The notes beneath the pieces are model-generated. The model saw only the letters and a program-made list of their open reading frames with translations, was not told the DNA's origin and made no database searches. A stretch of DNA of 64,000 nt from Blastococcus sp. CCUG 61487. GTDB taxonomy: Bacteria; Actinomycetota; Actinomycetes; Mycobacteriales; Geodermatophilaceae. Made by a program: the position numbers and the translations under genes. The stretch is taken from the NCBI RefSeq assembly GCF_005222955.1, contig NZ_LWUA01000223.1:1-64000 (forward strand). Direction: 5' to 3'. The stretch's first letter is position 1; each line of letters starts with the position of its first letter. Of the stretch, positions 1-45,440 are shown one piece after another.

Positions 1-456
1 GTCTCTGGGCAGTACATCTAGTGCAAGCAGTCGTTCTCGCCCGACAGCCGCTTGATTCACCCATTGCCTGCTGAGGCCGCGGAACACTCCGCGGCTGAAC
101 TGGTGCTGGAGCCAGCGGGCAAGGTAGGCAGGGTCGAGTTGTGTTGCTTCGGTCCGGAGCCGAAGGAAGTGGTTGCTGTAAACCGCCGGCTCGCCCAGGT
201 CGTTCACGAGGGCGGTCTTGCCTACGAGATCTGGACTGTTCGTCGCGTTGAAGAGCACATCGCCCGGCCGCAAGGCGAACGCGGCCCCACCGCCAACCGG
301 GGGCGGAACACGACGGCGCTTCGTCAGGTCCCAAGCCCCGCCCGCGGTGACGTTGTTCATCCGGACCTGAAAGACGCCGTCCTCCGACTGTTCTCCGGTC
401 GCGAACCCAGGCTTGGCCTCGGTAAGCAGCTCGCTAAGCCGACGAGTACGGATCAC
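1..456 (-). CDS. hsdS: Type I restriction-modification specificity subunit, 5' part (cut by window edge)
   Basis: Translating the minus strand from a GTG at 456 gives 152 uninterrupted codons to the window edge. The GTG overlaps the hsdM stop by four bases (GTGA), so translation is coupled. The product shows the N-terminal signature of a target-recognition domain: a GDVLFNATNS segment followed by VGKTALV, then YSNHFLRLR. HsdS recognises the split DNA target and docks HsdM and HsdR. The rest of the gene, and any hsdR, would lie beyond base 1. Codon use is less GC-biased than in neighbouring genes (CTT, GTT, GCA, ACA, CAA codons appear), as expected for a mobile, fast-diversifying specificity gene. 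I identify it by motif only. Confidence 0.82.
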   Translation of the reverse strand, partial: MIRTRRLSELLTEAKPGFATGEQSEDGVFQVRMNNVTAGGAWDLTKRRRVPPPVGGGAAFALRPGDVLFNATNSPDLVGKTALVNDLGEPAVYSNHFLRLRTEATQLDPAYLARWLQHQFSRGVFRGLSRQWVNQAAVGRERLLALDVLPRD

Positions 457-33192: not shown

Positions 33193-33510
33193 CCCGGGCC
33201 GGCACCGCGTCGCGGGAGCGACCCAGAGGACTTTCGTCCCGACCGTTGCGCCACCGTCCCGCCGATGTCGACATCCGTCGTCCCTTCCGACGCATCCCTG
33301 CGGAAAACGACGATGCAGAACAATTGCGGCAGCACATCGACCATTCGGCCATGTCGATACATCGCCTCGCGGAATGGCCTGACCATGGCTATGCATAACG
33401 ATGTGGCGGAAGTGCGCAGAGACACTTCTCCGGCCTGGCTGGACTCACCACACTTCCGGGCATCCACATCCCGGGCATGTGTCCCATGTCCCGTCCAGGA
33501 ACGGCTGGCC
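33193..33510 (+). other. Gene-free leader of the first receptor gene
   Basis: 318 bases with no credible gene. GC content drops between 33300 and 33420. The stretch holds a small hairpin around 33211-33224, a CCATTC element at 33341 and the promoter-like block at 33371-33398. In-frame upward extension of the receptor gene through this region (to 33265) encodes no conserved sequence. Confidence 0.6.
33371..33398 (+). promoter_or_regulatory. Candidate chemotaxis promoter block, receptor 1
   Basis: GGAATGG is followed by ACCATGG and a CATAA box 18 bases after GGAAT. The block aligns with those at 35241, 37131 and 43272, each upstream of a chemotaxis gene. The receptor 1 start lies 112 bases downstream. 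This copy has the least regular spacing. Confidence 0.4.
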
Positions 33511-35118
33511 ATGACCTCGACAGCACATCTCCCCCCTGCCGGCCGGCGTGCCGGCTGGTTTGCGAACCGACCGCTCGCGGTGAAGTTCGGTGTCCTCGTC
33601 GGCGCGGTCCTCGTGTCGCTCGCCGGGGTCGTCGCCTCGCTGCTGGTGGGCAACGCCGGCGTGCGGGACGCCGACCACCGCCTCATGGACCTCGAGCACG
33701 CGCAGGCGCTCGTCCTCCAGCTCGACACCCGGGCCAGCGAGCTCAAGGTGGACGGGTTCAAGGCCATCACCCGGCCCGACCCGGCCGCCCAGCTGCCGGA
33801 GCTCGCGGAGGACATCGCGACTCCGGAGGGTCTGCTCGAGGAGCTCGCTGCCATCGACCTGGAAGGGCCGGTGGCCGAGACGGTCGCCGACCTGCAGGCC
33901 GATTTCGGCCAGTACACCGCCGCCATCTCCGCGTTCGTGGACGCCGCGGTCGCCGACCAGGAGGGCACCCGGTTGCGCTGGGAGGAGATCCAGGCGGCCA
34001 ACGACCTCACCGACGGCGCCGTGAGCGCGGCCAAGGACGAGCTCGGGGCGGCCGCCGCGGCCGCGGAGGCGGAGCTCCTGGAGTCCATCGACCGCTCCGA
34101 GCTCACCAGCCTGGTCGTCGCGCTGGTCGGGCTGCTGGTCATCGCCGGTGTCAGCTGGGTGACCCTCAGGTCGATCACCCGCCCGGTGCAGAAGGTCAAG
34201 GAGTCGCTGGAGGCGCTCGCCCTCGGCGACCTCACCGTCGCCACCGGGGTCACGGCGCTCGACGAGGTCGGTCAGATGGCCGCCGCACTGGACACCGCCC
34301 AGGTGAAGCTCCGGGAGGTCATGGCGACAGTCGTGGGTTCCGCGGACGCGGTGGCCGCGTCGTCGGAGGAGTTGTCGGCGTCGTCGGCGCAGATCTCGGC
34401 GTCGGCGGAGGAGACCTCCGCGCAGTCGGGTGTGGTGTCCGGTGCCGCGGAGGAGGTCAGCCGCAGCGTGCAGACCGTCGCCGCGGGGGCGGAGCAGATG
34501 GGTGCCAGCATCCGGGAGATCGCGAGCAACGCGGCGGAGGCGTCGGAGGTGGCGTCTCGTGCGGTGACCGCCGCGGAGACCACCACCGCGACGGTCGCGA
34601 AGCTGGGTGAGTCGAGCGCGGAGATCGGCAACGTCGTCAAGGTCATCACGAGCATCGCGGAGCAGACGAACCTGCTGGCGCTGAACGCCACGATCGAGGC
34701 CGCACGCGCCGGGGAGGCCGGCAAGGGCTTCGCGGTCGTGGCCAACGAGGTGAAGGAGCTGGCGCAGGAGACGGCGAAGGCGACCGAGGACATCGCCCAG
34801 CGGGTGCTGGCCATCCAGGGCGACACGACCGCGGCGGTGGCGGCGATCGAGGAGATCTCGAGCATCGTCGCGCAGATCTCCGACCGGCAGACCACGATCG
34901 CCTCGGCGGTGGAGGAGCAGACGGCCACCACCAACGAGATGTCCCGTTCGGTGCAGGAGGCCGCCGGGGGCACGACGCAGATCGCGGAGAACATCACCGG
35001 GGTCTCCACCGCGGCCGACTCCACCACGCAGGCCCTGACCCAGACCCGCACCGCCGTCGACGAGTTGTCCCGGATGGCCGCGGACCTGCGCAGCACCGTC
35101 GGGAGGTTCACCTACTGA
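33511..35118 (+). CDS. Methyl-accepting chemotaxis protein 1
   Basis: 535 residues from the ATG at 33511, the start giving the basic leader [10 protein letters not shown] just before the first membrane helix. Layout: helix 1 (about 24-46), an extracellular helical sensor region of about 150 residues (four-helix-bundle type), helix 2 ([16 protein letters not shown]), HAMP, then the coiled-coil signalling domain. The hairpin tip [17 protein letters not shown] is intact. Ligand unknown. There is no C-terminal CheR-tether pentapeptide. The signalling domain is nearly identical in DNA to the next two receptor genes, whereas the sensor parts differ fully. It has its own promoter-like block and terminator. 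Confidence 0.94.
34384..34556 (+). repeat. 173-bp exact direct repeat, copy in receptor 1
   Basis: These 173 bases are identical, including all synonymous positions, to 36285-36457 in receptor 2. Receptor 3 shares a long part of it (around 38224-38305). The repeat lies in the signalling-domain codons between the HAMP exit and the first methylation helix. Base-level identity of duplicated coding DNA points to recent gene conversion or duplication. Confidence 0.9.
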
Positions 35119-35149
35119 CGGACGGCACGCGAACTCACGTTCTCCGACT

Positions 35150-35184
35150 AACGCCGGCGGCACCCCACGGGGGCCGCCGGCGTT
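35150..35184 (+). terminator. Hairpin terminator after receptor 1
   Basis: AACGCCGGCGGC and GCCGCCGGCGTT form a 12-bp perfect stem around an 11-base loop, 31 bases after the stop of receptor 1. Confidence 0.8.
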
Positions 35185-35205
35185 CTGCCGTTCCGGCACC
35201 TCAGA

Positions 35206-35264
35206 TCGAGAATGGCGAAAGGCGTCAAGTCGACTCGATCGGAATGGTCACCCGCCATTCTCGA
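35206..35264. repeat. 12-bp inverted repeat ahead of receptor 2
   Basis: TCGAGAATGGCG (35206-35217) is exactly complementary to CGCCATTCTCGA (35253-35264), separated by 35 bases. The right arm overlaps the spacer and -10-like box of the promoter block at 35241, so the repeat could be a looping operator or a leader structure. Confidence 0.7.
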
Positions 35265-35266
35265 CA
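35241..35266 (+). promoter_or_regulatory. Candidate chemotaxis promoter block, receptor 2
   Basis: GGAATGGTCACC, then CGACA exactly 16 bases after GGAAT. It shares GGAATGGTCACC with the cheB block at 43272 and the same spacing. The start codon lies 142 bases downstream. Confidence 0.5.
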
Positions 35267-35408
35267 TCACGTGCAACACGCCTCGGAGGGGAGGCGGAAC
35301 AGCAGCGGTTGCCTTCACCATCGATCGGCGCCCCTTCCATCGCGACACCACCCCTGTGCGCGGTCGGCGTGATCGAGTCCGAGTAGTGAAACCCCAGGAG
35401 CACTCCGC

Positions 35409-37019
35409 ATGTCCGTCCCGTCCCCTTCTCGCTCCGCGCGCCGCGGCAACTGGTTCGCCAGCCGGCCCATCGCCCTCAAGATCGGTGCTGCGGTCGCAGT
35501 GCTCGCTCTCGTAGCCGTCGCGATGACCGTTCTGGCGGTCTCCCGGATCAGCAACCTCAACACCGCTGCCGAGGAGATCAACGACAACGTCGTCTCCCTC
35601 GCCGACCTGGCCGACATCCAGCGCTCCTGGCAGGGCGACCGGTCGCGGTACAACACCTATCCCCTGGCGGACGCCGAGGGCCGGGCCGCGCTCGCTGCGG
35701 ACCTGACCGAGCGGCGCACCACGATCGAGGACCAGCTCGAGGCATACGCCGACGTCGCGGTGGACGTCGAGGCGTACGAGCAGTTCCGTGCGACCGTCGC
35801 GAACTACTACGTGGTCGCCGACGGCCAGCTGGTCCCGGCCGCGGATGCCGGTGACCTCGCGACCGCGGCTGCCGTGATCACCGGTCCGCTGCAGGACCTC
35901 TCCGACGTCCTCATGGACCAGTACAACCAGATCCAGGTGAACCGCGTGGGAGCCGGTCAGACCGAGACGGACGAGGCGAAGTCGATGGCCGCCACCGCCG
36001 TCGTCACGCTCTGGCTCTCCCTGGCCGTAGGCACGCTCCTGGCGGGCGGGCTCGCCTTCTACGTCGTGCGCCAGATCGTCCGCACGGTGAAGAGCGTGCA
36101 GGCCTCGGTCGAGGCGCTCGCGAAGGGCGACCTGACGGTCGCTCCCGAGATCTCCGCCGACGACGAGCTGGGCCGCATGGCCGCCGCGCTGGCCTCGGCG
36201 CAGGAGAACCTGCGCGGCGTCATGGCCCAGGTCGTCGGCTCCGCGGACGCGGTGGCGGCGTCGTCGGAGGAGCTGAGCGCCAGCTCGGCGCAGATCTCGG
36301 CGTCGGCGGAGGAGACCTCCGCGCAGTCGGGTGTGGTGTCCGGTGCCGCGGAGGAGGTCAGCCGCAGCGTGCAGACCGTCGCCGCGGGGGCGGAGCAGAT
36401 GGGTGCCAGCATCCGGGAGATCGCGAGCAACGCGGCGGAGGCGTCGGAGGTGGCGTCGCGGGCGGTGACGGCGGCGGAGACCACCACGGCCACCGTGGCG
36501 AAGCTGGGCGAGTCCAGCGCGGAGATCGGCAACGTCGTCAAGGTCATCACGAGCATCGCCGAGCAGACGAACCTGCTGGCGCTGAACGCCACGATCGAGG
36601 CCGCACGCGCCGGGGAGGCCGGCAAGGGCTTCGCGGTCGTGGCCAACGAGGTGAAGGAGCTGGCGCAGGAGACGGCGAAGGCGACCGAGGACATCGCCCA
36701 GCGGGTGCTGGCGATCCAGGGCGACACGACGGCGGCGGTGGCGGCGATCGAGGAGATCTCGGCGATCGTCGCGCAGATCTCCGACCGGCAGACCACGATC
36801 GCCTCGGCGGTGGAGGAGCAGACGGCCACCACCAACGAGATGTCCCGTTCGGTGCAGGAGGCGGCCGGCGGGACGACGCAGATCGCGGAGAACATCACCG
36901 GCGTCTCCACGGCGGCCGACTCCACCACGCAGGCCCTGACCCAGACGCGCACCGCCGTCGACGAGTTGTCCCGGATGGCCGCGGACCTGCGCACCTCGGT
37001 CGGTCAGTTCACCTACTGA
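35409..37019 (+). CDS. Methyl-accepting chemotaxis protein 2
   Basis: 536 residues. The leader [17 protein letters not shown] precedes membrane helix 1 ([18 protein letters not shown]). A helical periplasmic domain of the 4HB_MCP type (about 46-190) is followed by helix 2 ([20 protein letters not shown]), HAMP and the signalling coiled coil with the standard hairpin tip. The sensor half is unrelated to receptor 1 beyond fold, yet the signalling half shares long exact DNA runs. It is flanked by its own promoter-like block and a strong terminator, so expression can be independent of its neighbours. Confidence 0.94.
36285..36457 (+). repeat. 173-bp exact direct repeat, copy in receptor 2
   Basis: This is the second copy of the run described at 34384-34556. 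Downstream, identity to receptor 1 resumes in further blocks (for example around 36551-36712), separated by short segments differing only at third codon positions, a mosaic typical of gene conversion. Confidence 0.9.
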
Positions 37020-37026
37020 CCATTGC

Positions 37027-37064
37027 GGAGGGGCGGTGACCACATTCCACGTCACCGCCCCTCC
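37027..37064 (+). terminator. Hairpin terminator after receptor 2
   Basis: GGAGGGGCGGTGAC and GTCACCGCCCCTCC make a 14-bp perfect stem with a 10-base loop, starting seven bases after the stop codon. Confidence 0.85.
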
Positions 37065-37130
37065 ACCATTCTTCGGCGCGCGGCGGACAGTCTGAGAAGA
37101 AGTCTTGAGAGGCGCCATGTCGACAATCCC

Positions 37131-37156
37131 TGAGTGGTCACCACACTATTTAGACA
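37131..37156 (+). promoter_or_regulatory. Candidate chemotaxis promoter block, receptor 3
   Basis: TGAGTGGTCACCAC aligns with GGAATGGTCACCAC upstream of cheB, with AGACA at the -10-like position 16 bases on. It lies in the 313-base gene-free region between receptors 2 and 3, which otherwise contains only the receptor 2 terminator and an AT-richer leader. The start codon is 176 bases downstream. Confidence 0.45.
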
Positions 37157-37332
37157 CCGTGCCGCGACACGCTTATTGGTGTGACCCCAACCGAAACCCG
37201 AACGCCTAATTTCCTCGTGTGCAGCTGTTGGAGCTGCGCCTCCCGTGATCTGCCGGACGGGCATCGCGATCGCGAACGATGATTCCGTTGATCGGCACCG
37301 TGACGAGCACCGAGGAACGAGGAAGACCAGAG

Positions 37333-38964
37333 ATGACGGACAGCAGGCCGATGTGGCGACGTGGTCGTATGGGAGTACGCGGGAAGATCTTGGCGGTCGG
37401 TGCCGTCGGGATGGCAGCCGCCATCGCAGTGGGTGCGTTCGGCATTTCAGGCCTGGGCGACGCCGGTGACACTCGGGAACGGGTCGAGGACCTCAACGAA
37501 GCACTGGGCCACGCCCGGGGCATGGAGTACTACAACGCCGACGCCAGTGGCTGGCAGGTCGCCTACGCCTGGGACGCCCGGCGCATCGGCGGCGCCGCAG
37601 CCGTCTCCCCCGACAGCGGCAACCGCGCCGGCTTCCTCGAGCACATGGACAAGGTCGATGCCGCCCTACTGGCCATGCCGGTGGAGACACTCAGCGAGAG
37701 CGAGTCGGCGGTGTACGAGCAGATCATCGCGCGCTGGGATGACTTCTTCGCCATCGACGAACAGATCGCCGGCCTCTACGCGCAGGACACGCCATCGGCG
37801 ATCGACGCGGCGGACGAGATGCTTCTCGGCGAGGGCTACGGCGTCTACTACGACATCATCGATCTGACGGACGAATTGAAGGCCTCGCTGGTCGCCCGCA
37901 CCCAGGCCGCGAACGCGGACGCAGAGGCAGCCGAGAACGTGACCCGGTGGTCGATGATCGCCGCCATCGCCCTCGGCACCCTCGTCGTCCTCGGAGTGGC
38001 CATCGTCGTGGCCCGCAGGATTATCCGGCCCCTCAACGCGGTCAAGGACGTGGCCACCGCGCTCGCGACCGGCGACCTGACCCGGTCCACGGGGGTGCAG
38101 CAGGACGACGAGGTCGGGAGCACGGCTCGAGCCCTCGACGAGGCGATGGAGCGGCTCCGCGAGGTGATGGCGTCGGTCGTGACGAACGCCGACGCGGTGG
38201 CGGCGTCGTCGGAGGAGTTGTCGGCGTCGTCGGCGCAGATCTCGGCGTCGGCGGAGGAGACCTCCGCGCAGTCGGGTGTGGTGTCCGGTGCCGCGGAGGA
38301 GGTCAGTCGTAGCGTGCAGACGGTCGCGGCCGGCGCGGAGCAGATGGGGGCTTCGATCCGGGAGATCGCCAGCAATGCCGCGGAGGCGTCGGAGGTGGCG
38401 TCTCGTGCGGTGACCGCCGCGGAGACCACCACCGCGACGGTCGCGAAGCTGGGCGAGTCGAGCGCGGAGATCGGCAACGTGGTGAAGGTGATCACGAGCA
38501 TCGCGGAGCAGACGAACCTGCTGGCGCTGAACGCCACGATCGAGGCCGCCCGGGCTGGTGAGGCCGGCAAGGGCTTCGCGGTGGTGGCCAACGAGGTGAA
38601 GGAGCTGGCGCAGGAGACGGCGAAGGCCACCGAGGACATCGCCCAGCGGGTGCTGGCCATCCAGGGCGACACGACCGCGGCGGTGGCGGCGATCGAGGAG
38701 ATCTCGGCGATCGTCGCGCAGATCTCCGACCGGCAGACCACGATCGCCTCGGCGGTGGAGGAGCAGGAGGCCACCACCAACGAGATGTCGCGGTCGGTGC
38801 AGGAGGCGGCCGGCGGGACGACGCAGATCGCGGAGAACATCACCGGTGTCTCCACGGCGGCGGAGTCGACGACCCAGGCGCTGACCCAGACCCGCACCGC
38901 CGTGGACGAGCTGTCCCGGATGGCGGCTGACCTGCGCGCCACCGTGGGCCGGTTCAGCTACTGA
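37333..38964 (+). CDS. Methyl-accepting chemotaxis protein 3
   Basis: 543 residues from the ATG at 37333, preceded by a GGAAG ribosome site; an ATG at 37279 lacks one. Helix 1 is [20 protein letters not shown]. The sensor region (about 40-200) is a distinct helical bundle with several Trp and Tyr residues ([19 protein letters not shown]). Helix 2 is [21 protein letters not shown], then HAMP and the shared signalling domain. One notable change is [10 protein letters not shown], where the other two have [10 protein letters not shown], next to a likely methylation helix. cheA follows after a small hairpin. Confidence 0.94.
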
Positions 38965-38976
38965 CGGCCCGTCACT

Positions 38977-38994
38977 GGCACCCCCGCGGGTGCC
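38977..38994 (+). terminator. Small hairpin between receptor 3 and cheA
   Basis: GGCACCC and GGGTGCC form a 7-bp stem with a CCGC loop. It is weaker than the other receptor terminators and may only partly separate cheA from receptor 3 transcription. Confidence 0.55.
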
Positions 38995-39103
38995 GATAAC
39001 AGGCAGGACGGCCGGTCGGCGGCGGGCTCACCCCGAACCCGCCGCCGGCCCGCCGATGACCACGGGGCGACCGCCCTGGAGACGCAGAGAGAAGGCACCA
39101 ACG

Positions 39104-41611
39104 GTGGACGGTCTGGACGACATCGTCGAGGAGTTCCTGGTCGAGAGCCACGAGAACCTCGACCAGCTCGACTCCGACCTCGTCGCGCTCGAGCAGGACC
39201 CGAACTCCCGTGAGCGGCTCTCGAGCATCTTCCGGACGATTCACACGATCAAGGGCACCAGCGGCTTCCTCGCCTTCAACCGGCTCGAGGAGGTCACCCA
39301 CGTCGGGGAGAACATGCTCTCCCGACTCCGGGACGGCGAGCTCGCGCTCACGCCGGTGCGCACCAGCGTCCTGCTGCAGATGGTCGACACCGTCCGCGCC
39401 CTGCTGACCTCCATCGAGGCCAGCGGCGGGGAGGGCACGGTCGAGGTCGCCGGTGTCGTCGCCGCGATCAGCGCGGCCATGGAGGACACGCCGGCCGCCG
39501 CCGCGCCGTCGGTCCCCACCCCCCGCGCCGCGGAGGACTCGACGAGCACCCCGGCAGAGACGGCGACCAAGGCGCCCGCCAAGGCCGCCGCGAGGAGCCC
39601 GGCGAAGCCTGCCGCCAAGGCCCCCGCGAGGAGCACGGCCAAGGCGCCGGCGAAGAAGACGACCGCGCGCAAGACCGCAGCGCCGCGCGCGACGACGAAG
39701 GCGGCAGCCGCCGCGGAACCAGTGGAGGACACGCCGGTGGCGCCCGCTGAGGAGCCGACCGCCGTCACCACCTCCGAGCTCGAGGGAGCGAGTGCAGTCA
39801 TGCCCGAGACCACCGTCGAGGAGCTCTCCGCCGTGGAGGCGCCCCAGCCGGCCGAGCACGTCGACGGCGACCCGGCGTCGGCAGGTGACGGCCACGCCCG
39901 TCGCGGCGTGGCCGACAGCACCATCCGCGTCGACGTCGACCTGCTCGACGAGCTGATGCTGCTCGTCGGCGAGCTCGTGCTCACCCGCAACCAGATCGTC
40001 CAGTACGTCGGCCGGTCGAACGACACCGACCTGGTGCGCGCCTCGCAGCGGCTCAACCTGATCGCCAGCGAGCTGCAGGAGGGCGTCATGAAGACGCGCA
40101 TGCAGCCGATCGACCACATCTGGTCGAAGCTGCCGCGCGTGGTCCGCGACCTCGGCATGCAGCTCCAGAAGTCCATTCGCCTGGAGATGGAGGGCCGCGA
40201 GACCGAGCTGGACAAGACCCTGCTCGAGGCGGTCAAGGACCCGCTGACCCACCTGGTCCGCAACTCGGTCGACCACGGCATCGAGACGCCCGAGGCGCGC
40301 CGGGCGGCCGGCAAGCCGGCCGAGGGCGTGCTCACCCTGCGCGCCCGCCACGAGAGCGGGCAGGTCGTGGTCGAGGTCGCCGACGACGGCGCCGGCATCG
40401 ACCCGGACAAGCTGGGGGCCAAGGCCGTCCAGCGCGGCCTGCTCACCGCCGACGCGCTCTCCCGCATGAGCCCGACGGACATCTTCCAGCTCATCTTCCT
40501 GCCGGGCTTCTCGACCGCCGCCGCGGTCACCAACGTCTCCGGTCGGGGCGTCGGCATGGACGTCGTGAAGACCAACATCGAGGCGATCGGCGGCACCATC
40601 GAGGTGGAGTCCGAGGCGGGCGTCGGCACCGTCTGCCGGCTGCGCATCCCGCTGACCCTGGCGATCGTCCCGGCGCTCACCGTCGAGTGCGCCGCCGACA
40701 GGTACGCCATCCCGCAGATCAGCCTGCAGGAGCTGGTCAGCCTGGACGCGGAGAAGGCGGCCAACGCCGTCGAGGAGGTCGGCGGCGCGCAGGTCTACCG
40801 GCTGCGCGGCGAGCTGCTCCCGCTGGTGCGGCTGACCGACGTCCTCGGGCTGTCCAGCGACCGGCACGACGGGCACGTGGTCATCGCCGTGCTCCGCTCG
40901 GAGGGCCGGCGCTTCGGTCTCGTCGTCGACCGGGTGATCAACACCGAGGAGATCGTCGTCAAGGCCGTCGGCGGGCAGCTCAAGCAGATCGGGCTGTACC
41001 AGGGCGCCACCGTCCTGGGCGACGGCACCGTGGCGCTGATCCTCGACGTCCAGGCGCTGGCCCGCCGGGCGTTGCGCACCGAGAGCAGCGAGCGGAGCCA
41101 GGAGGCCGCCCGCGAGGCGGCCGCGGCCGCCGCGCACAGCGAGACCGAGCGGCAGCGGATGCTGCTGGCCGCCATCGGCGGTGGGCGCCGGGTAGCCATC
41201 CCGCTCGACACCGTCACCCGCCTCGAGCAGGTGCGCGCCGAGACCGTGGAGAAGGTCGGCAACCGCGAGGTGGTGCAGTACCGCGGCGCGATCCTCCCCA
41301 TCGTCCGGCTGGACCGGCACCTGGGCGCCTACGGCGAGACCGAGCGCGAGGTGCTGGAGGTCATCGTCTACTCCGACCACGGACGCAGCGTCGCGATCGT
41401 GGTCGAGGAGATCCTCGACATCGTCGACGGCGAGGCCGCGGTGCGCAGCGACATCGATGACCTGGGCCTGCTCGGCTCCGCCGTCCTCGGCGACAAGGTC
41501 ACCGAGCTGCTCGACGTCCGGGCGGCGATCCTCGCCGCCGACCCGGCCTTCTACTCGCCCTCCACCACCTCGACGCCGGCCGGCGTCTCCGACTCCCTGC
41601 TGGAGGTCTGA
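39104..41611 (+). CDS. cheA: Chemotaxis histidine kinase CheA with two CheW-like domains
   Basis: 835 residues from the GTG at 39104 (GAAGG 8 bases upstream), which begins at the Hpt domain. Phospho-acceptor His47 is in FRTIHTIKGTSGF. The usual P2 domain is not apparent; residues about 130-260 are instead an Ala/Pro/Lys-rich, histone-H1-like linker. Dimerisation starts near 266 (RVDVDLLDELMLLVGELVLT), the ATPase near 360-500 (LVRNSVDHGIE, GRGVGMDVVK). One CheW-like domain covers 510-655 and a second covers about 680-810. It phosphorylates the CheY and CheB proteins in response to the receptors. cheW follows one base after its stop. Confidence 0.95.
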   Translation: MDGLDDIVEEFLVESHENLDQLDSDLVALEQDPNSRERLSSIFRTIHTIKGTSGFLAFNRLEEVTHVGENMLSRLRDGELALTPVRTSVLLQMVDTVRALLTSIEASGGEGTVEVAGVVAAISAAMEDTPAAAAPSVPTPRAAEDSTSTPAETATKAPAKAAARSPAKPAAKAPARSTAKAPAKKTTARKTAAPRATTKAAAAAEPVEDTPVAPAEEPTAVTTSELEGASAVMPETTVEELSAVEAPQPAEHVDGDPASAGDGHARRGVADSTIRVDVDLLDELMLLVGELVLTRNQIVQYVGRSNDTDLVRASQRLNLIASELQEGVMKTRMQPIDHIWSKLPRVVRDLGMQLQKSIRLEMEGRETELDKTLLEAVKDPLTHLVRNSVDHGIETPEARRAAGKPAEGVLTLRARHESGQVVVEVADDGAGIDPDKLGAKAVQRGLLTADALSRMSPTDIFQLIFLPGFSTAAAVTNVSGRGVGMDVVKTNIEAIGGTIEVESEAGVGTVCRLRIPLTLAIVPALTVECAADRYAIPQISLQELVSLDAEKAANAVEEVGGAQVYRLRGELLPLVRLTDVLGLSSDRHDGHVVIAVLRSEGRRFGLVVDRVINTEEIVVKAVGGQLKQIGLYQGATVLGDGTVALILDVQALARRALRTESSERSQEAAREAAAAAAHSETERQRMLLAAIGGGRRVAIPLDTVTRLEQVRAETVEKVGNREVVQYRGAILPIVRLDRHLGAYGETEREVLEVIVYSDHGRSVAIVVEEILDIVDGEAAVRSDIDDLGLLGSAVLGDKVTELLDVRAAILAADPAFYSPSTTSTPAGVSDSLLEV

Positions 41612-41612
41612 C

Positions 41613-42062
41613 ATGACCGCCCCCACCACCGCCCCCGTCACCGGTGGGCAGCTGGCCACCTTCCGGCTGGACGGCGACCTGTACGGCATCGAGGTCGAGC
41701 ACGTGCAGGAGGTGCTGCGCAGCCAGCAGCTCACCCGCGTGCCCCTCGCCCCCGCCGCCGTCGCCGGCCTGATCAACCTGCGCGGCCAGGTGGTCACGGC
41801 CATCGAGCTGCGCGAGCGGCTCGGCCGCCCGCCCCGTCCCGAGGGCACCGACGCCGTGGTGATCGTCGTCCGGCTGCACGGTGAGGCCGTGAGCCTGCTG
41901 GTCGACTCCATCGCCGACGTGGTCGACGTCGACGCCAACGATTTCGAGGCGCCGCCGGACACCCTCGAGGGACAGGCACGCGACCTGATCCGCGGGGCCT
42001 ACAAGCTGCACGGGCAGCTCCTCCTGGCGCTCGACGTGCAGAAGGCGGTCAGCGCCCAGTAG
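41613..42062 (+). CDS. cheW: Chemotaxis coupling protein CheW
   Basis: 149 residues from the ATG at 41613, with GGAGG in the end of cheA as ribosome site. It shows the CheW fold: LATFRLDGDLYGIEVEHVQEV, VAGLINLRGQVVTAIELRERL, and VSLLVDSIADVVDVD. It bridges receptor tips to CheA. It is the only free-standing cheW in the window and ends in a strong terminator, closing the cheAW transcript. Confidence 0.95.
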   Translation: MTAPTTAPVTGGQLATFRLDGDLYGIEVEHVQEVLRSQQLTRVPLAPAAVAGLINLRGQVVTAIELRERLGRPPRPEGTDAVVIVVRLHGEAVSLLVDSIADVVDVDANDFEAPPDTLEGQARDLIRGAYKLHGQLLLALDVQKAVSAQ

Positions 42063-42094
42063 CGCTGGGCGATCGCTCTAGCACGCTCCGCCAC

Positions 42095-42148
42095 CCACAC
42101 GCGGCCCTCACGCCATCGTCCTCCCGCGATGGGGTGAGGGCCGTGTGG
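42095..42148 (+). terminator. Large hairpin terminator after cheW
   Basis: CCACACGCGGCCCTCACG... pairs with ...GTGAGGGCCGTGTGG over about 22 bp with a two-base bulge and one mismatch, closing an 8-base loop. It starts 33 bases after the cheW stop. Confidence 0.75.
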
Positions 42149-42204
42149 CGCTCCGGGGGTCGGGCCGCCAGCATGGGCGGAACCGATCCCTGGAGGCGAC
42201 TGCC

Positions 42205-43097
42205 ATGCCCTACTCGCTGGTCAGCGCCGCGACGCTGGGTTTCGACCTGGTGCGCCTCCCGGGTGGCCGGGCCGTCGCCGACGTGCTGCTCGCCGGCCTC
42301 GGCGCCGATACCGCCGCCCTCGCGGCGCTCGCCGCGGCCCACCCCTGCCGAGACCTGACCCGTGCCGAGCGCCAGCAGCACGCCGTGCGTGGACGGCGGG
42401 CCCGCGAGCTGGCGGCCTCGGTGCCGCACGTGCGCAGTGCGGCCTCGGCGGCAGCCGCGCCGCGCTGCTGGTCACGCAGCTCGAGCAGGGGACCATCGGG
42501 GACGCCCCGAACCTCGAGCGCCTGGTCCGCGACGACGTCGTCGGGCCGGAGCACGCCGCGGCCGCCGGGCTCGCCGAGGCGGAACGGGACGACGCCGTCG
42601 CCGTGCTCGCCGACGCCGCCGTCGGCTACTGGGCCGCGGGGGTGCTCCCGCCGCTGGTGCGCCGCGAACTGACCGACGCCTTCGACCGCAGCCTGGAGCG
42701 CGGCGATCTCGCCGTCCCGGCCGCGGGGGCGGACCTGGGCCCCGCAGCCGACGACCTCGCCGAGTTCCTGGCGGCGATCCGGGAGCTGGACCAGGACGGG
42801 CGTGCCGCCTGGCGGGCCGCCGTCGACGAGAGGCGCGGCCGGCACCGGCCGTGGGCCGCAGCCATGCACGAGGCGTCCTGGGCCGCGCACGTCTCCGGGC
42901 GCACCCGCGCGCTGGCCGCCGCCCAGCTGCACGCCGTCCAGGCGTTCCTCGACGGGGGCTTCGACCTGCACGACGGCGCCGCCGGTGTCTGGAACGCCGT
43001 CGCCGGCTGCGTCCAGGGTGTCGCGATGGGCGACCTGCTCGACGAGACGTCCCAGGCGGTCCTCCGCGCGCCCTGGGTGCGGGTCACCTCCGCCTGA
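42205..43097 (+). pseudogene. Unknown gene with an apparent frameshift, between cheW and cheB
   Basis: A well-placed ATG at 42205 (TGGAGG upstream) opens MPYSLVSAATLGFDLVRLPGG and runs in codon-biased frame to about 42440. Coding character then continues in another frame (GSRAALLVTQLEQG..., to the stop at 43097). The switch matches loss of one base near 42440-42450. Joined, the protein would be roughly 297 residues, helical, Ala-rich and soluble, with no family I recognise. It could be a genuine pseudogene, a sequencing error, or a programmed -1 shift; no slippery heptamer is evident. Terminators on both sides give it its own transcript inside the chemotaxis cluster. Confidence 0.6.
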
Positions 43098-43105
43098 CCG
43101 CCCCG

Positions 43106-43132
43106 GCGACGATCAGGTTCCCTGGTCGTCGC
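43106..43132 (+). terminator. Hairpin terminator after the frameshifted gene
   Basis: GCGACGATCA and TGGTCGTCGC pair over 10 bp with one G-U pair around a 7-base loop, nine bases after the stop. Confidence 0.6.
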
Positions 43133-43488
43133 GCCTCCTCCCTCGTGGTGGGCGGTGCGGGAGGACGCTGCACGGTGAGGGAGGACCGGTTCGCGGCGCC
43201 CCTGACGTGGGCACGACGGTCACCGCCCCGCAGTGTCGACTCGTCGGCCAATTGCCATTTCCACTCGGTTGGGAATGGTCACCACGGAATTGCGTAACGA
43301 GTGCGCGTCGCGCCTTTCTTTTCGCGTTGTGGCCACCGATGCTTCTGAGGCGGTTGGGACGACGGCGCCGAGCCGGAGCCATTCGCCGTGGGCACGGCCG
43401 GAGCGCTCAAGCAGTGCGATCGCCGTGCCGATCAATGCGGTGAACAGCCTGACCGGGGCTGCCCCGGTCAGCGAGCAGGAGGACACGC
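43133..43488 (+). other. Gene-free leader of the cheB operon
   Basis: 356 bases without a credible gene. Base composition becomes AT-richer from 43240 to 43330 around the promoter block. CCATTTCC (43256-43263) and GGGAATGG (43271-43278) form an imperfect inverted repeat. The remaining 185-base leader to cheB shows no motif I recognise. Confidence 0.55.
43272..43297 (+). promoter_or_regulatory. Candidate chemotaxis promoter block, cheB operon
   Basis: GGAATGGTCACCAC followed by CGTAA exactly 16 bases after GGAAT. This is the best example of the shared block and resembles an ECF-type -35/-10 pair. It would drive the six-gene cheB operon with a leader of about 185 bases. Confidence 0.5.
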
Positions 43489-44619
43489 GTGAACCCGATC
43501 CGGGTGATGGTCGTCGACGACTCCGTCGTCGTCCGCAAGATCGTGACCGACGTGCTCTCCGCCGACCCCGCCATCGAGGTGGTCGGCACCGCGGTGAACG
43601 GCAAGGTCGCCCTGGCCAAGATCGGCCAGCTCGAGCCCGACCTCGTCACGATGGACATCGAGATGCCGGAGATGAACGGCATCGAGGCGGTGCGCGGCAT
43701 CCGGGCCGGCGCGGGCGGAGCCAGGTACGGCCGCGTGCCGATCGTCATGTTCAGCACGCTGACCGACCGCGGAGCGTCGGCCACCCTGGACGCCCTGGCC
43801 GCGGGCGCCAACGACTACGTCACCAAGCCCGCCAACGTCGGCAGCGTCGCCCAGTCGATGGAGAGCGTGCGCGAGCAGCTCATCCCGAAGATCAAGGCCC
43901 TGACCGGACGCCCGGTCGCGGTCGTGCCCCCGCCGCGCGCCGCGGCGCCCCCTCCCCCGCCGGCCGCTCCGCGCACGGGGCCGCCGAAGTCGCCCGAGGT
44001 CCTCGTGATCGGCTCCTCCACCGGCGGGCCCGAGGCGCTGGCGAAGGTGCTCCCCCGGCTTCCGGCGTCGCTGCCCGTCCCGGTACTCCTCGTCCAGCAC
44101 ATGCCCCCGGTGTTCACCCGTCAGTTCGCCCAGCGGCTCGACCGCCTGTGCGCGCTGCGCGTCGTCGAGGCCTCCGACGGGACGCCGCTGCTGCCGGGCA
44201 CCGTGCACCTGGCTCCCGGCGACCACCATCTCGTCGTGCGCCCCGTCGGCGCCGGCGGGCGGGCCGGCCTGCAGACCGGTCTGCACCAGGGACCTCCCGA
44301 GAACTTCTGCCGTCCGGCGGTCGACCCCCTGTTCCGGTCCGTCGTCGAGGCCTTCGACGGCGCCGTCCTGGCCGTCGTCCTGACCGGCATGGGCTCCGAC
44401 GGCCGCAACGGCGCCGGCGAGGTCCGTGCCGCGGGCGGCCGGGTGATCGTCCAGGACCAGGCGACCTCGGTGGTCTGGGGTATGCCCGGCGCCATCAGCC
44501 AGGCCGGCTACGCCGACGAGGTGCTGCCGCTGGACCGCATCCCCGACGCCATCACCCGCCACCTGGCCGGTGCATCCGGCGTTCGCACCACCGTCACCAC
44601 AGCTGGAGTTCCCCGATGA
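43489..44619 (+). CDS. cheB: Chemotaxis methylesterase/deamidase CheB
   Basis: 376 residues from a GTG with AGGAGG at ideal spacing. The receiver domain (1-125) has acceptor Asp56 in VTMDIEMPEMNG and the conserved Lys in DYVTKPANV. A Pro-rich linker leads to the esterase domain, with the catalytic triad in IGSSTGGPEAL (Ser), LLVQHMPPVFT (His) and LTGMGSDGRNG (Asp). It removes receptor methyl groups and resets sensitivity. cheR starts inside its stop (ATGA). Confidence 0.96.
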   Translation: MNPIRVMVVDDSVVVRKIVTDVLSADPAIEVVGTAVNGKVALAKIGQLEPDLVTMDIEMPEMNGIEAVRGIRAGAGGARYGRVPIVMFSTLTDRGASATLDALAAGANDYVTKPANVGSVAQSMESVREQLIPKIKALTGRPVAVVPPPRAAAPPPPPAAPRTGPPKSPEVLVIGSSTGGPEALAKVLPRLPASLPVPVLLVQHMPPVFTRQFAQRLDRLCALRVVEASDGTPLLPGTVHLAPGDHHLVVRPVGAGGRAGLQTGLHQGPPENFCRPAVDPLFRSVVEAFDGAVLAVVLTGMGSDGRNGAGEVRAAGGRVIVQDQATSVVWGMPGAISQAGYADEVLPLDRIPDAITRHLAGASGVRTTVTTAGVPR

Positions 44620-45440
44620 CCCTCACCACGACCAGCTTCGACTGGGTGCGGGAGCTCGTGCACCGCGAGAGCGCGATCGTGCTGCAGCCGGGCAAGGAGT
44701 ACCTCGTCGAGGCACGGCTGCTGCCGATCGCCCGGCAGGCCGGCCTCAGCGACGTGTCCCAGTTCGTCGACGCGGTGCGCCGCCGCCCGGACCCGGCCGA
44801 CATGCGCCGGATCGTCGAGGCGCTCACCACCAACGAGACGTCGTGGTTCCGCGACGGCGATCCGTTCACCGGGCTCACCTCCACGGTGCTGCCGGCGCTG
44901 CTCGCCGCTCGCGGACCCAACGAGAAGCTGCAGATCTGGTCGGCGGCCTGCTCCAGCGGGCAGGAGCCGTACACGATCGCGATGCTGCTCGAGGACGCGC
45001 TGCCGAACGCCTCCAGCCGGGTCGCGATCACCGCGACCGACCTGTCCCGCGAGATGGTCGCGCGCACCGCCGCCGGCCGATTCAGCCAGCTCGAGGTGAA
45101 CCGCGGGCTGCCGGCACCCATGCTCGTCCGGCACTTCACGCGGGTCGGCACCGAGTGGGAGGTGGCCGCGCCGCTGCGCCGGATGGTCACCGCCCGCGAG
45201 TGCAACCTGGCCGCGCCGCTGCCTCGGATGGGCCCGTTCGACGTCGTGTACCTGCGCAACGTGCTCATCTACTTCGACCTGCCGACCAAGCAGTCGATCC
45301 TCCGGCGGGTGCGCGAGCTCATGCGCCCCGACGGCTGGCTCTTCCTCGGCGCCGCGGAGACCACCCTCGGCGTCGACGACCAATGGGAGCGGGTCGTCGT
45401 CGGCCGCAGCTCCGCCTACCGCCCGCTGAAGGGGGCCTGA
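44616..45440 (+). CDS. cheR: Chemotaxis receptor methyltransferase CheR
   Basis: 274 residues, coupled to cheB by a 4-base overlap. The N-terminal CheR_N helices precede the SAM domain: ALTTNETSWFRDGDPF, IWSAACSSGQEPYTIAMLL (SAM site), ITATDLSREMV and FDVVYLRNVLIYFD. It methylates receptor glutamates using SAM, opposing CheB. No tetratricopeptide extension is present. The receptors here lack the C-terminal tether pentapeptide, so recognition must be of the direct, tether-independent type. Confidence 0.96.
   Translation: MTLTTTSFDWVRELVHRESAIVLQPGKEYLVEARLLPIARQAGLSDVSQFVDAVRRRPDPADMRRIVEALTTNETSWFRDGDPFTGLTSTVLPALLAARGPNEKLQIWSAACSSGQEPYTIAMLLEDALPNASSRVAITATDLSREMVARTAAGRFSQLEVNRGLPAPMLVRHFTRVGTEWEVAAPLRRMVTARECNLAAPLPRMGPFDVVYLRNVLIYFDLPTKQSILRRVRELMRPDGWLFLGAAETTLGVDDQWERVVVGRSSAYRPLKGA

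Follow-up and report, generated by a model that had tools for sequence, protein, structure and literature searches.

The window studied here is a stretch of 64,000 nucleotides from Blastococcus sp. CCUG 61487 (contig NZ_LWUA01000223.1, positions 1 to 64,000; a 4.1-Mb genome in 296 contigs; genus Blastococcus, family Geodermatophilaceae). It carries a chemotaxis cluster in the order MCP1-MCP2-MCP3-cheA-cheW-(open reading frame)-cheB-cheR-response regulator-cheX-response regulator, where MCP is a methyl-accepting chemotaxis protein, that is, a chemoreceptor. Our subject is a short sequence block that recurs before the three receptor genes and before cheB. We find that the block is a fragment of a larger, predicted composite control region of ~125 bp. 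All of the evidence that follows was computed from sequence, and the features of the window are collected in Table 1.

The initial annotation had aligned four copies of the block 110-220 bases before the start codons, each with GGAAT and a CGTAA-like box 16 or 18 bases further on. The four blocks are indeed present: GGAATGGCCTGACC at 33372, GGAATGGTCACC at 35241, TGAGTGGTCACC at 37131, and GGAATGGTCACC again at 43272, lying 139, 168, 202, and 217 bp, respectively, from the chosen starts (33511, 35409, 37333, and 43489). The spacing to the second box also stands; the likeness to CGTAA is loose, the 5-mer being a different word in each copy (CATAA at MCP1, 18 bases on; CGACA, AGACA, and CGTAA at MCP2, MCP3, and cheB, 16 bases on). 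The exact 12-mer GGAATGGTCACC occurs only twice in the whole 4.1-Mb genome, at 35241 and 43272, and with up to one mismatch the block is found at 22 places in the genome compared with 4 for a reversed control pattern. The block is thus not a random recurrence, and the main support for it is comparative, in that the longer element around it turns up again before MCP genes in other members of the family. We regard the observation of a shared block as partly confirmed.

Table 1. Positions of the composite elements, promoter-like boxes, and chemotaxis genes in the window
Feature	Position	Strand	Sequence or evidence
Composite before MCP2	35209-35323	+	R2 45.8 bits, E 2.5e-13; sequence in model
MCP2 boxes	35228-35235; 35246-35252; 35274-35280		AGTCGACT; GGTCACC (18 bp on); CAACACG (28 bp on)
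MCP2 -10-like hexamer	35316-35321	+	CACCAT, 42 bp after CAACACG
Composite before MCP3	37099-37212	+	R2 45.8 bits, E 2.6e-13; sequence in training set
MCP3 boxes	37118-37125; 37136-37142; 37165-37171		TGTCGACA; GGTCACC (18 bp on); CGACACG (29 bp on)
MCP3 -10-like hexamer	37207-37212	+	TAATTT, 42 bp after CGACACG
Divergent copy before MCP1	33352-33454	+	TGTCGATA at 33352; GGAATGGCCTGACC 33372-33385; weak -10-like CACACT 33449-33454
Partial, rearranged copy before cheB	43234-43299	+	TGTCGACT at 43234; GGAATGGTCACC 43272-43283; GGAATTG 43286-43292; CGTAACG 43293-43299
Inverted AGTCGAC / GGTGACC pair before cheB	43216-43248	-	R2 10.1 bits, E 0.034 for the window
FliA/WhiG-type promoter of cheB	43406-43433	+	CTCAAG-N15-GCCGATC; conserved in orthologous regions
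FliA-type -10 box before cheA	38992-38999	+	GCCGATAA; GCCGATA[AG] conservation
MCP1 (HAMP, MCPsignal)	33511-35118	+	domain matches
MCP2 (4HB_MCP_1, HAMP, MCPsignal)	35409-37019	+	domain matches
MCP3 (HAMP, MCPsignal)	37333-38964	+	domain matches
CheA	39104-41611	+	domain matches
CheW	41613-42062	+	domain matches
CheB	43489-44619	+	domain matches
CheR	44616-45440	+	domain matches

The composite element before receptor genes

The composite found before MCP genes consists of TGTCGACA, then CGGTCRCCGACC-TTCTC, then GCGACACGC, and then a (T/C)ANNNT hexamer, with successive steps of 18 (or 25-26) bp, 28-30 bp, and 42±1 bp. To count its boxes, we used 38 MCP upstream regions, comprising 37 of 54 post-MCP regions (the 17 leading into cheA were excluded) and the region upstream of MCP1 in the window. 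TGTCGACA is present in 22 of the 38 regions where 0.36 would be expected, CGACACG in 24 (4.2 expected), and GGTCACC in 16 (2.1 expected). Expectation maximization (EM), seeded with a consensus arrangement picked by eye, gave one 62-bp motif with a posterior of 1.00 in 31 of these regions, those before MCP2 and MCP3 of the window included.

Two models were used for searches. R1 was built from sequence alone, with 26 sites in Blastococcus, and includes the -10 region; its sites were drawn from a first genus set of 31 (30 EM sites plus L059_1, which had an EM posterior of 0.00, with L067_3 excluded). R2 comprises 67 sequences, of which 23 come from the 26 sites of R1 and 44 from the 49 family sites linked to an MCP gene. 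With R1, matches were obtained in 23/23 Blastococcus genomes at E<=0.05 and, at E<=0.001, in 78 of the 112 family genomes and 9 of the 12 genera (55/89 genomes outside Blastococcus). Seven genomes from outside the family gave a best E value of 0.0056, and Geodermatophilus chilensis gave 3.4e-15. The neighboring gene was checked for part of the family matches, at 53 non-Blastococcus sites made up of 13 that were returned and 40 chosen mostly from the top, among the matches listed. At 49 of these 53 inspected sites, among the matches listed, an MCP gene lies an estimated 141-280 bp downstream, the MCP start being extrapolated where the protein match begins internally. Site L255 seems, from our reading of a shifted frame, to precede cheA.

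The spacing of the boxes is nearly fixed. Of the 67 sequences, 33 have a step of 18 bp from TGTCGACA to GGTCACC and 17 have one of 25-26 bp, the step from GGTCACC to CGACACG is 28-30 bp in 51 of 55 measured, and the step from CGACACG to the -10-like hexamer is 41-43 bp in 45 of 55 measured. In the 18-bp class, the CGAC words of the three boxes would therefore lie ~21-23 bp apart, or about two helical turns. The columns between the boxes mostly carry near-zero information while the boxes persist. This matters for the possibility that the similarity is simply upstream DNA that was copied when the receptor genes were duplicated in tandem. The receptors are tandem paralogues, with MCP1 and MCP2 sharing 90% of residues over their last 323, and this would fit such copying. 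However, boxes that stay while little information is left in most of the columns between them, across genera, are not what duplication alone would leave, and the upstream half of the element is also carried by an unrelated M23 peptidase gene. We therefore rejected duplication alone as the explanation and consider it the least probable of those weighed here.

At all 12 of the M23 peptidase loci inspected, that of our own genome included, a TGTCGACA...CGGTCACCGACCGTTCT-like sequence precedes the gene; these loci had been selected as model matches. The M23 domain is C-terminal and was matched by Pfam in 4/4 proteins tested. By eye, GTGAC repeats are also seen near the start of this gene (L123-L133 near 4100, and L135) and are reminiscent of an MtrA-type site. 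Partial elements also stand before an MCP gene that encodes Cache domains and lies outside the array (L278) and, in one species, before a DUF3152/LGFP gene (L277). No model match was obtained at the loci around the two Flagellin_N genes in four genomes. A weak match in our own genome (C259:558, E 3.9e-4) has no good downstream gene; the protein encoded nearby we take to resemble SepX.

Within the window, the first-noted copies at 35241 and 37131 sit inside the MCP2 and MCP3 composites, which are the only two that the full model R2 scores (both are in its training set); the MCP1 and cheB blocks are unscored. The copy before MCP1 looks like a divergent form of the putative composite. In the nearest relative, the MCP1 orthologue is preceded by TGTCGACACAT...GGAATGCGCTGACC, to which the copy aligns gap-free but with mismatches, in an alignment that spans TGTCGA.ACAT...GGAATG..CTGACC. 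The EM posterior for the MCP1 upstream region is 0.02, and R2 has no match at that place.

The -10-like hexamer and the ECF-type alternative

Little is conserved 3′ of CGACACG until offset 42, where the (T/C)ANNNT hexamer (YANNNT) appears. It stands at exactly +42 in 16 of the 31 genus EM sites and at +41..43 in 23 of them, and for the other genera the corresponding numbers are 26 and 36 of 49 MCP-linked sites among the matches listed. Among 2000 controls made by circular shifting, no offset had a count above 5 for the genus EM sites or above 6 for the other genera. The strict form TANNNT is found in 13/31 genus EM sites and, summed over +41..43, in 20/49 sites of the other genera. The genus EM sites were found without use of the hexamer region, and the counts are the same whether the first genus set or the exact 31 is taken. 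In the alignment of 67 sequences, the columns that reach at least 90% conservation include the A and the final T of the hexamer.

A -35 hexamer does not accompany it. At 17-bp spacing, the columns where a -35 would lie hold 0.01-0.06 bit each, rising to at most 0.26 bit with 18-19 bp, and 7 of the 67 elements have a TTGAC-like -35, compared with 5.6 when shuffled. Because there is no conserved -35, an activator at the upstream boxes would be the likeliest driver. We infer that the hexamer may be the -10 of a sigmaA-type, activator-dependent promoter.

The initial annotation had instead taken the two best copies of the block to fit the -35/-10 pattern of an extracytoplasmic function (ECF) sigma factor, with GGAAT as the -35 and CGTAA as the -10, and had proposed a chemotaxis regulon with long leaders. 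These words are present in the window copies, a GGAATTGCGTAACG-like sequence is kept at cheB in part of the genus, and the MCP elements contain more weak pairs than shuffled sequences do, with GGAAT-N16-18-CGTAA at up to two mismatches in 24 of 67 aligned copies (shuffled mean 5.7, maximum 12). The pairs are nevertheless scattered over 12 alignment columns, 23 of the 24 carry two mismatches, and 11 of the 24 fall at a GGAATGG-like word upstream of TGTCGACA. At the register that was first noted, the pair is found in 1 of 67 copies, which is MCP2 of the window itself, with 2 more lying two columns away. The block is placed in the middle of the predicted operator, with three other boxes present and a far better positioned, conserved -10-like hexamer ~70 bp downstream. 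We therefore rejected the ECF pair, and an ECF-type promoter appears very unlikely. Nor do the leaders need to be long, since starts predicted from the hexamer would give ~80 nt at MCP2 and ~115 nt at MCP3.

FliA/WhiG-type promoters, cheB, and the rest of the window

In the Blastococcus genomes, the best conserved feature upstream of cheB is a FliA/WhiG-type promoter rather than the block. TCAAG-N14/15-GCCGAT, starting 72-83 bp before the cheB start, is found in 23 of 23 regions. Before cheA, GCCGATA[AG] lies 112-123 bp from the start in 20/20 regions in which a cheA start was found (L062 had none). Upstream of flagellin, TCAAG-N15-GCCG[AT]A was seen by eye in 4 genomes, the -10 there not being GCCGAT. 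A published consensus for flagellar FliA/WhiG promoters has TAAA as its -35 and GCCGATAA as its -10 (PMC8325347). In our own genome, one FliA/WhiG-family sigma gene scores above the family cut-off; a second, which scores below it, lies ~2 kb from the flagellin match.

If such promoters drove the receptor genes as well, the block would be incidental. The boxes kept at cheB and cheA and the looser sequence before flagellin are in favor of this. In the MCP elements, however, a FliA-type pair (TCAAG-N14-16-GCCGAT, <=2 mismatches) is at chance, with 2 of 67 elements against a shuffled mean of 3.1, and it is the composite that is conserved there instead. We consider it quite unlikely that FliA/WhiG-type promoters account for the receptor genes. 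The claim that the receptor control region is distinct from the usual FliA type thus holds, and these counts support a control of the receptors that would be separate from FliA.

The inclusion of cheB in a receptor regulon fares less well. A partial copy of the block is present, but full membership is not borne out, because cheB has its own FliA-type promoter in all 23 regions whereas the block, in the altered form GGAATTGCGTAACG, is present in 8/23 Blastococcus cheB regions by pattern and in 9 by eye. The inverted AGTCGAC/GGTGACC arrangement is found in the clade's 9 species in the cheB alignment, with GGTCACC exact in 5 of the 9. The other 14 of the 23 cheB upstream regions (L023-L025, L027-L029, L031-L035, L040-L042) have a different conserved stretch around TTCTGCGTGTCGGCTG, which holds CGACACGC in reverse in 14/14 by eye. 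Taken together, the first interpretation is partly supported: receptor control apart from FliA stands, and an ECF promoter with long leaders and full membership of cheB does not.

Several further observations concern sigma factors and the surrounding genes. A weak FliA/WhiG-family match lies at G000:C235:19208-19552, with similar ones in G006, G007, G020, G021, G076, and G078. These weak matches are a few kb from flagellin in the four genomes with flagellin located and ~5-6 kb from a second FliA-like match in the other three, and they perhaps represent a diverged sigma-like gene. In relatives with contigs that are long enough, cheA is likewise preceded by tandem MCP genes. The signaling halves of the window MCPs (33511-38964) are highly alike, with long identical stretches of DNA seen by eye, and their sensor halves differ, as if the signaling halves were kept alike by gene conversion. 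The open reading frame between cheW and cheB (42145-43097) is broken into two parts in different frames (42145-42672 and 42603-43097), as a frameshift or a sequencing error would produce, and Pfam gave no match for either part. At the gathering threshold, the only Rfam match over the window is a thiamine pyrophosphate (TPP) riboswitch (RF00059, 5646-5754, 60.1 bits).

A predicted activator-dependent promoter and related systems

From the conserved boxes, their spacing, and the hexamer without a -35, we conclude that chemoreceptor genes of the Geodermatophilaceae are probably driven by a composite promoter that depends on an activator, with the block as its middle part. The likeliest meaning of the element is that it points to a putative activator protein and not to a special sigma factor. 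In this scheme, the hexamer would serve as the -10 of a housekeeping (sigmaA/HrdB-like) promoter that lacks a working -35, and RNA polymerase would be recruited by one or more putative regulators bound at the three boxes, which would face approximately one side of the helix. Production of the receptors, and possibly of a secreted M23 cell-wall peptidase, would then respond to a signal distinct from FliA, with FliA-type promoters serving flagellin, cheA, and cheB.

A number of findings weigh against this conclusion. Two of the four first-noted copies, those at MCP1 and cheB, were missed by the model. At E<=0.001, 34 of the 112 family genomes have no match, although stricter filters and some poor assemblies are involved, and no MCP or che gene was recognized near 3 of the 53 inspected sites (L264, L267, and L268). 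Some receptor genes in two g8 genomes (g8 being a genus of the family) are separated by only 27-126 bp, measured from match to match, and the matches before three g8 receptor genes are weak and partial (L332, E 1.4e-5; L312, E 0.0019; L308, E 0.0028). The M23 copies match approximately model positions 5-80, leaving the half from CGACACG to the -10 unmatched. Finally, R1 contained the -10 region, so the test of the -10 across the family carries selection, which the genus EM set does not.

More tentatively, a dedicated putative regulator might switch on both the receptors and the M23 peptidase through the three-box operator, apart from the FliA class, and thereby couple receptor supply to cell separation during formation of the motile form. 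In the ~80 kb around the chemotaxis cluster of one genome (G007), inspected by eye with rough gene calls, we saw no flagellar gene and no evident regulator candidate. The composite element is not described in the open-licence literature that we searched by titles and the beginnings of abstracts.

Receptor genes are members of the late class driven by FliA in those flagellated bacteria that have been studied best. Here, many receptor genes of the family have a conserved control region of their own, beside cheA, cheB, and flagellin with FliA-type boxes, and the chemotaxis regulon would thus be split in two. The composite would also provide an exact bait sequence for finding the regulator of a poorly understood motile stage. 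A condition-dependent switch would be useful to the field, given that some Blastococcus species are recorded as motile and others as non-motile, even though flagellar and chemotaxis genes are present in the genomes that were studied (PMC9686282).

Among known actinobacterial systems, the third box invites comparison with WhiA, whose motif in the Streptomyces account is GACAC (PMC3781837). The third box might be a WhiA site, with a partner bound at the other boxes and the receptors as WhiA targets. Of the 67 elements, 62 contain GACAC, against a mean of 14.4 on shuffling. The elements were chosen partly for this box, and therefore the count is a lead only; moreover, five bases easily match by chance. 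The conserved third box is longer, GCGACACGC, and is fixed in orientation and distance, whereas the description of the WhiA motif notes no clear consistency of direction (PMC3781837). The elements here also differ from the WhiA targets described there in having two further boxes and receptor genes as the targets. A WhiA site thus seems unlikely.

The TcrA regulon of Actinoplanes missouriensis resembles our proposal in that an actinobacterial activator acts on a repeat upstream of developmental genes (PMC12691653). Its box, nnGCA(A/C)CCG-n4-GCA(A/C)CCGn (PMC12691653), is not above chance in the elements, however (1 of 67 at <=3 mismatches, shuffled mean 3.2), and was rejected as a candidate. 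FliA/WhiG promoters serve motility genes, as the element would, and are present in Blastococcus at cheB and cheA and, more loosely, at flagellin; the MCP elements differ from them in having no such pair above chance and in having (T/C)ANNNT as their -10. Activator-dependent sigmaA promoters have an upstream operator and a weak -35. The receptor elements are like these in combining a -10-like hexamer without a -35 and operator boxes at a fixed distance, and they differ from the typical case in that three boxes extend over ~55 bp, the nearest of them 42 bp from the predicted -10.

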